The position numbers were made by a program, and so were the translations under genes. Positions 9,286 to 15,749 of a stretch of DNA of 64,000 bases are shown here, in pieces. The first letter of the stretch is position 1; every line of letters begins with the position of its first letter. Origin of the DNA: Palaeococcus pacificus DY20341 (lineage in GTDB: Archaea > Methanobacteriota_B > Thermococci > Thermococcales > Thermococcaceae); contig NZ_CP006019.1 in the NCBI RefSeq assembly GCF_000725425.1, forward strand, positions 1,240,001 to 1,304,000. Direction: 5' to 3'. The notes beneath the pieces are model-generated. The model saw only the letters and a list, made by a program, of their open reading frames with translations, did not search any database and had not been told where the DNA came from.

Positions 9286-10176
9286 ATGGAGGACGTGGAG
9301 AGAGTAATAAGCAATATTCTCGAAAAAGTCAAAAATCATAGAAAGCTTTACGATGCAAATGAAGAGGCTGTAAAGCAGCACTTAATTGGCGAGATATTTG
9401 AGGTATTGGGTTGGGAATGGCAGAATCCAAATGAAGTGAGGCCCGAGGAAAGGACGGAAGATGGGAGGGCGGATTACGCTTTAGTCCTTGGCGGAAAAGT
9501 AATATCTTTTGTGGAAGCAAAAAACTTGAGCGTAAAGATACTCAAAAATGAAAAGCCTCTAAGACAGCTGGGGAAATACTGCTTTTCTCGAGGTGTTACC
9601 TATGGCATTCTCACAAATGGGCTTCAGTGGATAGTTATAAAAGCCTTTGAAGAAGGTTCAACCCTTAAGGACAGGATACTCTTTTTAGTCGATCTTGAGA
9701 AGGAGCCTCCAAAGAGAAGTGCACTTAAGCTTTCTCTCTTGAGTAAATCTCGCATTAAAGAGCTTGAAAGGCTCGCAAAGCTGCTTCAATATTTTGAAGA
9801 GAGCTTTAGAGCTTTGAAAAGGGAAGGCTTCGACGAGGACGAGTTAATTGGCTACCTCAGGAGCGAGGGCATGCTAAAAGGACTCCTTCCGATAGTTCCA
9901 ATAAGTTCGATTGATACGACAGATGAAGAACCTAAGAAGGTCTATATCTATGAGAGCTCTAGAAAAGTCTTGGAATCCCAAATCAAAGGCTGGTATGATG
10001 TTCTTTCAACAGTTTTAGAGTATCTTTTGATTGCAGCGGACCTTAGAGAAGAGGAGAGAAAAGAACTCTCAACCCTCTACAAATACTCAAAGAAGATACC
10101 AAAGGAAAAAATCCTGACGCTCTTGAAGGAGATCGAGAGGCACTTTAATGTTAGAATATCAATTGAGTTTAGCTAA
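9286..10176 (+). CDS. Orphan HSDR_N-type nuclease-fold protein
   Basis: 296 residues. Residues about 20-140 match the N-terminal domain of type I restriction R subunits: EEAVKQHLIGEIFEVLGWEW, then EERTEDGRADYAL and ISFVEAKN, giving the D...ExK core of a PD-(D/E)XK nuclease, and later GVTYGILTNGLQW. There is no helicase, methylase or specificity gene nearby, so this is not a restriction system in itself. The C-terminal half is helical and unrecognised. Similar stand-alone proteins occur widely in archaea; a role in DNA repair or defence is inference. It follows an AT-rich spacer. Confidence 0.75.
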   Translation: MEDVERVISNILEKVKNHRKLYDANEEAVKQHLIGEIFEVLGWEWQNPNEVRPEERTEDGRADYALVLGGKVISFVEAKNLSVKILKNEKPLRQLGKYCFSRGVTYGILTNGLQWIVIKAFEEGSTLKDRILFLVDLEKEPPKRSALKLSLLSKSRIKELERLAKLLQYFEESFRALKREGFDEDELIGYLRSEGMLKGLLPIVPISSIDTTDEEPKKVYIYESSRKVLESQIKGWYDVLSTVLEYLLIAADLREEERKELSTLYKYSKKIPKEKILTLLKEIERHFNVRISIEFS

Positions 10177-12265: not shown

Positions 12266-13183
12266 CTAAATACCCATGAGGGCCAATGGTGTTGTGTACA
12301 ACCATTCTCCATCGACTATTAAGTCAATGTCCTTTCCTATCTTTCTTCGTTTGTTTGAAAATCGCAGTATATACCAGTATCCATTCAATATTGAAAACGC
12401 TAAGACCAAGAAGACTCTGCTGAAATATCTAAAATAGTATCCAATTAAAAGCCAGGGGATAAATGTGCTATTTAAAAATAAGAGTAAAACTTTACTCTTC
12501 TCAAATCCAAGCTTTACAGGCAAAGTCTTGATCCCATTAGTTCTATCCCCGTCGATATCTCTTAGGTCAAACAGTATGGTGTTTATAAGGCTCTTCATAA
12601 AAAAGAAATAATATATCAAAAACACCTTTATGAAATTAACATGATCTATGGTTAAGTAAGGTAAAAATGTGGTCCCATTAGCCCATGTTATCGCTATTAT
12701 CAAGTTTTTAACACCGGTTATATCTTTAAGTCGAGGATATTTTGGGGAAATCTGAACACTATAAAGCACGCCAGAGCATACTGGAAACATAACCACAAGA
12801 ACTGCCCATATGCCTGTTACAGCACTCAAAATGATTGCCAAGGCAAAAGAGATAATTATAGAACACTTAAAAATCTTTGGGAATTTTTTTATATATCCAA
12901 CCCTTTCAGGATTGTTTATTTCATCTTCTTTTAAATCTGTGAGTTTGTTTATCCCGTAAACGCTGAATATCAAAAAGAATGTGGTTAAGAGAAGATTCCA
13001 ATGAGGTTCAGCTTCGTACAATATGAAAGACAGATACAGCTTGAAAACACCGCTTATTGCTAAGAAGAGTGATGTTGATGTCAAAAGTGTAAAAAAGGAA
13101 TGAGCTGTTTGATAAGTTTTCTTAAAGCTTTTAATAGTATCTTCCAGAGCTTTGTATGAGTTGAAGTACCCCCAATCAACCAT
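12266..13183 (-). CDS. UbiA-superfamily prenyltransferase
   Basis: A 305-residue membrane protein with about eight helices and both Asp-rich motifs of the UbiA family: NKLTDLKEDE near residue 100 and DLRDIDGDRTNGIKTLPV near residue 207. These bind Mg-prenyl-diphosphate. The family includes DGGGP synthase of archaeal lipid synthesis and quinone or heme prenyltransferases. This copy has an unusual N-terminal soluble extension of about 25 residues and is distinctly AT-rich, so I do not equate it with the housekeeping DGGGP synthase. Downstream of the FilR1-like regulator in the same orientation. Confidence 0.82.
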   Translation of the reverse strand: MVDWGYFNSYKALEDTIKSFKKTYQTAHSFFTLLTSTSLFLAISGVFKLYLSFILYEAEPHWNLLLTTFFLIFSVYGINKLTDLKEDEINNPERVGYIKKFPKIFKCSIIISFALAIILSAVTGIWAVLVVMFPVCSGVLYSVQISPKYPRLKDITGVKNLIIAITWANGTTFLPYLTIDHVNFIKVFLIYYFFFMKSLINTILFDLRDIDGDRTNGIKTLPVKLGFEKSKVLLLFLNSTFIPWLLIGYYFRYFSRVFLVLAFSILNGYWYILRFSNKRRKIGKDIDLIVDGEWLYTTPLALMGI

Positions 13184-13275
13184 TTTTTTCCTCCGTTTAT
13201 GTTTTTAAAAAATGAATTTAACCGCAATACGTTAATTAAGTTAGAACTCTTAACGGATGAAATAAAAAAAGAGTT

Positions 13276-14070
13276 TTATAATACTCTCTTTGCCTTTTCC
13301 TTGTAGTATTGGAACAAAGCTATTCCCCATTTTCTTGCTTTTTCGCTGTTGCTAATTAGATCCGCCATCATGTCATACCTGCCATCTGGAAAGAACAAGC
13401 CAAAGGATAAAAAGTTGTTAGTAACAGTAAAGGCAACTTTTGGATTTTCTTCTAGTATGTAAATTTTAACATTTGGAAGGTCTTTAACTAGCTCAACAGC
13501 CTCTGGAGGTGCTAGCTCTATTAATTTTTCATAGACTGCTCTTGTTGTTATGATCTCAATATCGACATTTTTGGTCGATGCAAGCTCCATAAACGCCTTT
13601 GGATAATCGGAGAATAGGATGGGAGAAACTCCTTTGATCCACTTCGAAGTTTTTACAAGCTTCATATATGCTTCATGAGGGAGCGTGAGGTGTTCGGGTG
13701 GGGTAATATACAGCTGAGAATCTTTTAAATCGCCAATTCTCTCAAGAAACTCTACAGGTATTCCGCTTAGATCGTGATTTAGCCAGAATTCCTCAAAATT
13801 TTTCACTGTCTCGAGCGTGTCTACCAATCTAGCCATTTGTAAGTATGTTAGGTATCCTGTATTAGTGAGCATATACTTCTTGGTATCTGGATCCTGTGTG
13901 ATCAAATTTTCCTCTTCAAGATCATTGAGTGAATGGGATATCGAAGATTTGGTAGAACCAATTATTTTTTGTAATTCACCAAGGGCTTTTGGTCCGCTTG
14001 ATAGTGCAAACAGGATTTTATGGCGCAAAGTAGATGATACGATTAATTTCAGCATTTTTCCAACATCCAT
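13276..14070 (-). CDS. FilR1-like winged-helix regulator (DUF1724 type)
   Basis: 264 residues. The N-terminal winged helix (about residues 12-75, with SSISHSLNDLEEENLI as recognition helix) resembles ArsR/MarR domains. The C-terminal part with GVSPILFSDYPKAF and LSFGLFFPDGRYDMMADL matches the middle domain of methanogen FilR1 regulators, thought to sense a small ligand. ATG 14070 follows GGAGGAG. It is divergent from the KaiC-like gene, and an inverted repeat centred at 14142 lies between the two TATA boxes, so auto- and co-regulation of both genes is likely. Confidence 0.82.
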   Translation of the reverse strand: MDVGKMLKLIVSSTLRHKILFALSSGPKALGELQKIIGSTKSSISHSLNDLEEENLITQDPDTKKYMLTNTGYLTYLQMARLVDTLETVKNFEEFWLNHDLSGIPVEFLERIGDLKDSQLYITPPEHLTLPHEAYMKLVKTSKWIKGVSPILFSDYPKAFMELASTKNVDIEIITTRAVYEKLIELAPPEAVELVKDLPNVKIYILEENPKVAFTVTNNFLSFGLFFPDGRYDMMADLISNSEKARKWGIALFQYYKEKAKRVL

Positions 14071-14133
14071 AGCCTCTCCTCCGTTTTCTGGTTATACATG
14101 AAGTTGTTAATAAACTTTTCTTTAGGGTAAATT

Positions 14134-14150
14134 TTGTTCTGAGAGAACAA
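14134..14150. promoter_or_regulatory. Inverted repeat operator candidate
   Basis: Arms TTGTTCT and AGAACAA flank GAG. It lies between the minus-strand TATA (TTTATTAAC, about 14110-14118) and the plus-strand TATA (TATTATATAG, about 14169-14178), placed upstream of both. Position and symmetry suggest the binding site of the adjacent FilR1-like regulator. Confidence 0.5.
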
Positions 14151-14213
14151 TTTTGCTTTCATAAGACAAAAATATTATATAGTATAACAGACCACATGTG
14201 GATGTGAGGTATT

Positions 14214-14996
14214 ATGAGACTGTTATCATCGGGATTTGAGAGGTTGGATAAAGCGCTAGGGGGCGGAATATTAGAAGGTACAAACATACTCCTCATTTAT
14301 GACTCCTTTTCCTTAGGTTGGATTATGCCATTCAAAATACTTCAATATCGTTTATCACAGGGTGATTTTGGGATAATAATAAACTACAACCTTCCATTGC
14401 CAAAACTTGCACTTAGAGCTAAATCAGCAGGCCTTGATATTGATCTAGAGGGCAAAAATGGAAACTTAGCTATTATTGATATATTTGGTTCCAGATACGG
14501 CAATCAGCATTCTGAGGATTATGTATATACAATAGAGAGATTTGATTCCGAGACGTATGTTCCAAAACTTTTGGATATTTATAATGATATCTTGGAAAAA
14601 GCTGGGAATAGAAGGATAATAGAGTTGAGTTTTACCATAGATGGCATGGCGTTTGAAATAGGAGAAGATAGAAGTGTTAGAATATTAAAACATGTATTTT
14701 CAAATGCATGTTCGGAGGAAAGGAAAAGACTCTTGTTCTCAATGTATCTCTTAAACAAAGACAGAGCCTCAAAAGAGTTTGTCTCATGGAATATTGAACT
14801 TGGAGATCATGTCGTTGAGTTTCTCTTTGAAGAAAAAACTGACAGAATCTTAGAGCAGATGTATATTCTTAAGTCTCCTTCTTTTGAATTTGAACCTACA
14901 GTTTACACATGCCTTCTTAGAGGTAGCAGCATTATCATCGAACCCGTGGAAACTCAGAGGGGAGTATTGCCCCAAACATCTTTTTGGCTTTTGTAA
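14214..14996 (+). CDS. KaiC/RAD55-like protein with degenerate P-loop
   Basis: 260 residues. The opening SSGFERLDKALGGGILEGTNILLIY is the hallmark of KaiC/RadA-type ATPases. Where the Walker A GxxGxGKT should follow, the sequence is DSFSLGWIMPFKI, with no lysine-threonine pair. Walker B is also poor (RRIIELSFTIDG). The protein is therefore probably an inactive pseudo-ATPase, perhaps a sensor or scaffold. The function is unknown. It is AT-rich relative to flanks, has its own TATA (near 14169) and GAGGT SD, and is divergent from the FilR1-like regulator. Confidence 0.72.
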   Translation: MRLLSSGFERLDKALGGGILEGTNILLIYDSFSLGWIMPFKILQYRLSQGDFGIIINYNLPLPKLALRAKSAGLDIDLEGKNGNLAIIDIFGSRYGNQHSEDYVYTIERFDSETYVPKLLDIYNDILEKAGNRRIIELSFTIDGMAFEIGEDRSVRILKHVFSNACSEERKRLLFSMYLLNKDRASKEFVSWNIELGDHVVEFLFEEKTDRILEQMYILKSPSFEFEPTVYTCLLRGSSIIIEPVETQRGVLPQTSFWLL

Positions 14997-15131: not shown

Positions 15132-15749
15132 ATGGATATTTCAAAGATCATTGGGGAAATAATAGAAGCTTTAGACAAAAAAGATGAGATGAGAGAAGAG
15201 GCTCTGAGAATAACACGTGAGATAGTTCGGCTAAGTGGTGATGTTATAAAAGCACTTCATAGAAAAAACTTTGACTTGGCAGAAGAACGGTTGAGAAAGG
15301 CTGAAGAGCTCGTAAGGAGTTTAAAACAACTTTTGGAAGCACATCCTGATATTTATTACACGGGTTATGTTCAAACCGCACATCAAGAATTTGTAGAGGC
15401 TACGCTATTCTATTGCTATTTGAAGGGTATAGAATTCCCCTCCCCCAAAGAGCTCGAAGTTCCAGAGGGGGACTATGCTTTAGGGCTTGGGGATCTAATA
15501 GGAGAGCTTAGAAGACACGTCCTTCTCTCTATTTTAGAGGAAAATTTAGATGAAGCCGAGAGAACCTACAGAACAATGGAGCATATATATGAGGAGATAA
15601 TGCGCCTCGACTATCCAAAAGGGGTGGTGAACGTCCGTCAAAAGCAAGATTCAGCGAGGAAACTCGTAGAGCGTACTTTGGAAGATCTAACAAGGGCTAA
15701 GCTAACTAAAAAGCTTGAAGATAAAATAGGTGAGGTCTTGAAGAGATGA
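15132..15749 (+). CDS. Translin-family protein
   Basis: 205 residues, entirely helical, matching archaeal translin/TRAX: heptad-rich N-terminal helices ([22 protein letters not shown]), [21 protein letters not shown], and [24 protein letters not shown]. Eukaryotic translin-TRAX (C3PO) binds and cleaves RNA; archaeal members form octamers with RNase activity in some species. ATG (15132) follows GGGGTGAT. TATA ATTATATA at 15053-15059 would start transcription inside the C/D sRNA, so sRNA and mRNA may overlap. Its stop overlaps the endonuclease V start by 4 bases. Confidence 0.88.

Follow-up and report, generated by a model that had tools for sequence, protein, structure and literature searches.

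In Palaeococcus pacificus DY20341, a member of the Thermococcaceae, a gene for a FilR1-family regulator lies upstream of a gene for a UbiA-superfamily prenyltransferase and is divergent from a gene for a KaiC-like protein that lacks the P-loop. We will call the three genes the cassette, and the third protein pseudo-KaiC. The window that we analyzed is a 64,000-nucleotide stretch of the 1.86 Mb chromosome (positions 1240001-1304000). An earlier sequence-only reading of this stretch had reported the three genes, and our analysis of open reading frames confirms them. The features of the cassette, in window coordinates, are:

12266-13183, minus strand: UbiA-superfamily prenyltransferase, 305 amino acids (PF01040, 4.9e-21)
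13184-13275, minus strand: spacer between the regulator and UbiA (from the sequence and from ORF spacing in 16 loci)
13276-14070, minus strand: FilR1-family regulator, 264 amino acids (from Pfam, AlphaFold2, and Foldseek)
14077-14083, minus strand: Shine-Dalgarno sequence of the regulator, GGAGGAG
14107-14120, minus strand: regulator promoter, with BRE at 14115-14120 and TATA at 14107-14114 (GAAAAGTTTATTAA on the minus strand; from the 16-locus alignment)
14134-14150, no strand: putative operator dyad 1, TTGTTCTGAGAGAACAA, an exact palindrome
14153-14169, no strand: putative operator dyad 2, TTGCTTTCATAAGACAA, whose right arm abuts the BRE of pseudo-KaiC
14168-14181, plus strand: pseudo-KaiC promoter, with an A-rich BRE and a TATA (ATTATATA, 14174-14181; from the 16-locus alignment)
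14214-14996, plus strand: pseudo-KaiC, a P-loop-less KaiC/RecA-fold protein, 260 amino acids (from alignment, AlphaFold2, and Foldseek)

Close to the cassette, at 9286-10176, is a gene for a stand-alone protein with the type I restriction domain HSDR_N. The names for the gene at 15132-15749 conflict: Pfam places its product in the translin family (7e-14), while NCBIfam places it in the haloacid dehalogenase superfamily (297 bits).

Among 94 genomes of Thermococcales, 16 encode an orthologue of this UbiA over most of its length. In all 16, an orthologue of the regulator adjoins UbiA upstream, an orthologue of pseudo-KaiC is divergent from the regulator, and the arrangement is identical. The sequence-only reading had allowed that the three genes might never be found together elsewhere; this check of their neighborhoods across the Thermococcales shows that they do co-occur. 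Its suggestion that they form a small accessory system is well supported, both by this shared arrangement and by a conserved operator (see below). It also proposed that the pseudo-ATPase may sense or scaffold and that the prenyltransferase may make a membrane product. Besides UbiA, there is no biosynthetic gene within the three-gene unit. In the literature library that we searched, we found nothing on the cassette. Outside the phylum, we covered named control genomes and scanned contigs with one cassette protein; the scan found three loci, all from Thermococcaceae.

Fifteen of the 16 loci share a chromosomal site, where a gene for an EamA transporter follows UbiA wherever the contig is long enough to tell (one contig ends inside UbiA). 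The exception is genome G093, whose cassette lies between a conserved gene (which has no name) and glmS. In another genome (G085), only a fragment of UbiA is present, between the translin-family and EamA genes, and the other two genes are gone; this fragment is the remnant of a partial deletion. We also inspected 20 cassette-free sites at the EamA gene (from 19 genomes without the cassette and from G093, whose cassette is elsewhere). At about 15 of these 20 sites, the usual flanking genes are directly joined, and other genes lie at the remainder; none of the 20 has remnants of cassette genes. Pairwise distances for the three cassette genes are correlated with each other (Spearman 0.77-0.94, with the highest value, 0.94, for the regulator and pseudo-KaiC) and with distances for the neighboring EamA gene (0.78-0.93). 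These comparisons suggest that the cassette was for the most part inherited vertically and was lost repeatedly; it appears to be a vertically inherited yet dispensable unit of the Thermococcaceae. Purifying selection on each of the three genes is strong, with dN/dS of 0.02-0.09 (0.05-0.09 for pseudo-KaiC, from three close pairs).

As the sequence-only reading had noticed, the cassette differs in composition from its surroundings: its GC content is 35.5%, versus 42.5% for the entire window. It is the most AT-rich 2.7 kb of the window, where just 0.5% of segments of its size (2.73 kb) have a GC content this low. The cassette is more AT-rich than its flanks at all 16 loci, and because this holds at every locus, we view the AT content as a property of the unit and not as a mark of its recent arrival in P. 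pacificus.

In six genomes of a single genus, a relative of the regulator with 49-50% identity (incomplete in one of them) is unaccompanied by UbiA, so the regulator seems able to act alone. The lone regulators of G087, G089, G086, and G092 (loci L062, L063, L064, and L065) have the same flanks as the cassette of G093, namely the conserved gene and glmS. At these four loci, which we inspected, we found no UbiA, no pseudo-KaiC, and no operator.

The spacer between the regulator and UbiA is 92 bp in P. pacificus; the ORF positions at the 16 loci show that most orthologues have a shorter one of roughly 20-30 bp. Judging by the spacer, the two genes are consistent with a single operon; in the P. 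pacificus genome, the spacer possibly holds an extra promoter for UbiA.

An alignment of the intergenic region between the regulator and pseudo-KaiC from the 16 loci shows conserved blocks with variable sequence between them. The conserved block at the regulator's promoter is TAATAAACTTTT, and its TATA/BRE block on the regulator's strand reads AAAAGTTTATTA. The block at the BRE and TATA of pseudo-KaiC is CAAAAAcGTTATATA. The TATA match lies 39-43 bp from the start codon of pseudo-KaiC at 15 of the 16 loci (47 bp at L051). Between the divergent promoters are two dyads of the form TTGTT-N7-AACAA, with their centers 19 bp apart. This 19-bp register gives the best-scoring pair at 15 of the 16 loci; at the other (L036), a different pair, shifted upstream by one site and with a 20-bp register, scores best, and TTGTTC-N5-GAACAA is still present at the usual place. 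The best score for the tandem dyads ranges from 14 to 20 out of 20 (17-20 at 15 loci and 14 at one), while the means for shuffled sequences are around 12. Furthermore, some arms have changed symmetrically (TTGTC/GACAA in dyad 1 of L048 and TTGCT/AGCAA in dyad 2 of L045), as expected for the binding site of a dimer.

Dyad 1 is the palindrome that the sequence-only reading had placed between the promoters. It is exact, and it is half of the conserved two-dyad operator. By itself, the palindrome is unremarkable: 0.55 matches with up to two mismatches are expected in the window, so we rejected it as stand-alone statistical evidence. What makes it remarkable is that it is conserved across 16 loci and that its exact form is unique, with one occurrence in the 1.86 Mb genome. 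(Allowing one mismatch gives three further sites in the genome, which is not clearly more than the control count.) A distance of 13 bp separates the end of dyad 1 from the BRE of the regulator. Dyad 2 touches the BRE of pseudo-KaiC, so binding there should block TFB. The conserved tandem dyads suggest that the regulator would bind its own promoter region, and we infer that it is a local regulator with its own putative operator. Because the three genes are inherited as one unit and share a conserved DNA switch, they very probably cooperate as functional partners.

The sequence-only reading was right to call the regulator FilR1-like. The protein matches Pfam's FilR1_middle (4.5e-31; 108 bits with a cut-off of 27), and its N-terminal winged helix matches both HTH_5 (35 bits with a cut-off of 22) and HVO_A0261_N (36.7 bits with a cut-off of 35). 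FilR1 and HVO_A0261-type regulators have the same combination of a FilR1_middle domain and an ArsR-like winged helix. FilR1 of Methanosaeta harundinacea binds its own promoter (PMC3991700). In contrast to FilR1, the cassette has no two-component kinase, and its regulator is linked to UbiA and pseudo-KaiC.

The AlphaFold2 model of the regulator (pLDDT 86.8) has TrmBL2 as its best Foldseek match (4.8e-10), followed by TrmB and other PLD-fold proteins. The root mean square deviation of these matches over the whole chain is about 19 Å, so the arrangement of the domains is different or uncertain, and the fold assignment rests on the individual domains. With this reservation, the regulator models as a TrmB-like protein with a winged helix and a PLD-like C-terminal domain. 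TrmB and TrmBL2 of Pyrococcus and Thermococcus share the winged helix and the PLD-like effector domain, which in TrmB binds sugars, but they are just 8-16% identical to the cassette's regulator. Also, the operator of TrmB and TrmBL2 is the TGM motif, while the operator here would be a pair of TTGTT-N7-AACAA dyads.

The identification of the prenyltransferase also holds. It scores 75.6 bits against PF01040 (cut-off 34.2), and both of the aspartate-rich motifs, N79xxxD83xxxD87 and D206xxDxxxD213, are intact, with invariant columns in 15 orthologues. We therefore expect this UbiA to be an active enzyme. The sequence-only reading considered its N-terminal extension to be odd, but all of the orthologues have about 30-35 residues of variable sequence there. 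The closest NCBIfam model is PRK13591, whose members are also found in Methanosarcina acetivorans. The score of 125.6 bits is below that model's cut-off of 238, which no genome in our sample of the phylum exceeds.

Could the cassette's UbiA be a second DGGGP synthase, that is, a spare enzyme for ether lipids? DGGGP synthase (PRK12883) belongs to the same superfamily and has the same aspartate motifs, but it is a different sequence class: UbiA scores 47.9 bits against PRK12882 (cut-off 296) and 34.7 bits against PRK12883 (cut-off 353). Furthermore, the P. pacificus genome encodes a bona fide DGGGP synthase elsewhere (476 bits against PRK12883), and the cassette's UbiA is present in just 16 of 94 genomes. 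A second DGGGP synthase is thus very improbable, and from its sequence, we classify the cassette's UbiA as not being an ether-lipid enzyme. The cassette points to a membrane prenyl product that lies outside core ether-lipid synthesis and that is made by only some species.

We noticed two other UbiA-family genes. After the third such gene of P. pacificus (L103:1390-3160) comes one for a large membrane protein resembling flippases and LPG synthases. And an 8-kb contig of G093 (C35) carries a PRK13591-like UbiA in two overlapping frames (L067:5682-7294), whose convergent neighbor is a FilR1-like regulator (32% identity), with no pseudo-KaiC beside them. This contig, which might be contamination or else a second locus in decay, hints that the link between UbiA and the regulator is older than the cassette.

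Pseudo-KaiC's match to PF06745 is sub-threshold but real (19.6 bits; cut-off 26.6), and it scores just 16.7 bits against TIGR03881 (cut-off 247.8). Its AlphaFold2 model (pLDDT 88.8) has the RecA/KaiC fold. The top Foldseek match is PH0321 (PDB 3bs4; 2.5e-16), and PH0284, KaiC, and FlaH are also among the top matches. Pseudo-KaiC shares the overall fold and the N-terminal signature SG-x-x-x-[LI]D-x-x-x-GGG with KaiC, PH0186, PH0284, and ArlH/FlaH. Unlike those proteins, all 21 members of our alignment (16 cassette orthologues and 5 paralogues) have replaced both the Walker A lysine and the catalytic glutamate. As the sequence-only reading had recognized, Walker A is absent: the TGGTGTGKTTF of PH0186 aligns with IYDSFSLGWIM, so that YDxxSxGW stands in place of GxxxxGK[ST], and the lysine and threonine correspond to Gly35 and Trp36. 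Similarly, the LEE of PH0186 aligns with YNL, which puts Asn57 at the position of the catalytic glutamate and removes the glutamate pair. Y29, S33, G35, W36, N57, and P61 are invariant across the 21 sequences. Given these invariant replacements and the strong purifying selection, the pocket was rebuilt and kept, and not merely lost.

PH0321, the closest solved relative, likewise has the KaiC/RecA fold (profile match 1.2e-11). In a structural alignment it is 20% identical to pseudo-KaiC; the printed alignment shows IHEEDASSRGKD in PH0321 at the position of the canonical GxxxxGK[ST]. The deposited structure includes an unknown peptide. No function has been assigned to PH0321, and our search of the literature library found none. 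The Y-D-x-x-S-x-G-W loop, a linked regulator, and a linked UbiA set the cassette's protein apart from it.

The loss of Walker A is not peculiar to the cassette. Of the 94 Thermococcales genomes, 93 contain one or more matches to the pseudo-KaiC family, and P. pacificus itself has seven matches at E < 1e-20. In each of the six P. pacificus paralogues that we read, the loop is degenerate in a like manner. The emphasis that the sequence-only reading put on the missing motif was misplaced, because the whole family, as read here, lacks it. The Thermococcales thus have a large family of ATPase-like proteins without an ATP site and with no known role. By evolutionary evidence, the cassette is the first context we found that ties one of these proteins to a regulator, a DNA operator, and a membrane enzyme, and so it gives experiments on the family a place to start.

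The paralogues mostly adjoin unrelated genes, so partnership with a regulator is not a rule of the family. One paralogue (L016:5099-6579) and the gene for the archaellum regulator EarA are divergently oriented. This arrangement was seen only in P. pacificus, or at 1 of 30 EarA loci, and we rejected a general pairing of these genes with HTH regulators. In four sampled genomes from three genera (L075, L076, L089, and L101), a paralogue adjoins genes for proteins with HAMP/MCP signaling domains and for DUF257-type proteins, suggesting a signaling role for the family.

As the best explanation for the cassette as a whole, we propose an autoregulated regulator-UbiA operon joined to a repressed pseudo-KaiC adaptor unit, and we consider this proposal reasonably probable. 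Between the divergent promoters, dimers of the FilR1/TrmB-fold regulator would bind the two tandem dyads. Binding at dyad 2, next to the BRE and TATA, would repress pseudo-KaiC, while the dyad array would autoregulate the regulator-UbiA operon on the opposite side. An inducer would be bound by the PLD-like domain of the regulator. UbiA would transfer a prenyl chain to an acceptor other than GGGP to form a membrane-bound prenylated product. Pseudo-KaiC, with its RecA fold, would be an adaptor without hydrolytic activity and would modulate another protein, for which the regulator and the prenyltransferase are the simplest candidates. Sequences and models show the unit, its co-inheritance, the operator, the lost ATPase motifs, the intact UbiA motifs, and the purifying selection; repression, dimer binding, the ligand, the product, and the adaptor role are inferred. 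Three observations count against the proposal: UbiA is the sole biosynthetic gene of the unit, most paralogues of pseudo-KaiC have unrelated neighbors, and a related regulator occurs in some genomes without UbiA.

We also considered that the regulator and pseudo-KaiC might be a regulatory pair, with a repressor and its antirepressor or co-regulator, and with UbiA as the sole output gene. The strictest co-variation in the cassette is between these two proteins (Spearman 0.94), the dyad array sits between exactly their promoters, and the HAMP/MCP and DUF257-type neighbors of a paralogue fit as well. There is a parallel, by description, in Haloferax, where the KaiC homologue CirA is proposed to modulate the regulator CsmR (PMC13286277). 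However, the paralogues are not generally beside HTH regulators, and the EarA case is not conserved at the 29 other EarA loci. We regard the regulatory pair as a serious possibility, though not the expected outcome. It is also possible, if somewhat doubtful, that pseudo-KaiC is a sensor whose remodeled pocket still binds a nucleotide, or else some other small ligand. The residues that replace Walker A and the catalytic glutamate are invariant in orthologues and paralogues, so the site is being maintained and is not decaying, and PH0321 was crystallized with an unknown peptide. On the other hand, a glycine at the position of the Walker A lysine and an asparagine at that of the catalytic glutamate argue against this.

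A different kind of explanation is horizontal acquisition: the cassette would be an island whose three genes came in together as passengers of a single insertion, with no need to cooperate. This might account for the patchy distribution (16 of 94 genomes), the AT-richness at all 16 loci, and the second site in G093. But 15 loci share a site, distances track those of the neighboring EamA gene, there is no mobility gene among the ORFs listed, and we found no terminal repeat and no relative in viral contigs. The conserved operator and the purifying selection weaken the idea already, as passengers would not keep an operator in a 19-bp register or dN/dS under 0.1. We consider an island to be improbable. 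A mobile element or virus was rejected, as there are no notable flanking repeats and no relatives in viral contigs, and so was insertion at a tRNA, as there is no tRNA nearby.

More speculatively, the cassette might be a membrane-lipid control module: pseudo-KaiC, whose dead ATP site would have become another binding pocket, and the repressor, with its PLD-like domain, would together control how much of a special prenylated lipid UbiA makes. We think this unlikely, but if true, it would be a type of archaeal membrane-composition sensor that has not yet been described.

Finally, paralogues of pseudo-KaiC turned up in two other settings. One lies between the genes for EF-2 and EF-1alpha in P. 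pacificus (L012:5052-5807) and in a second genome of its genus, G001 (L068:4866-5633). Another, with 30% identity, is on a plasmid of Thermococcus barophilus MP (NC_015471.1:13879-14547).
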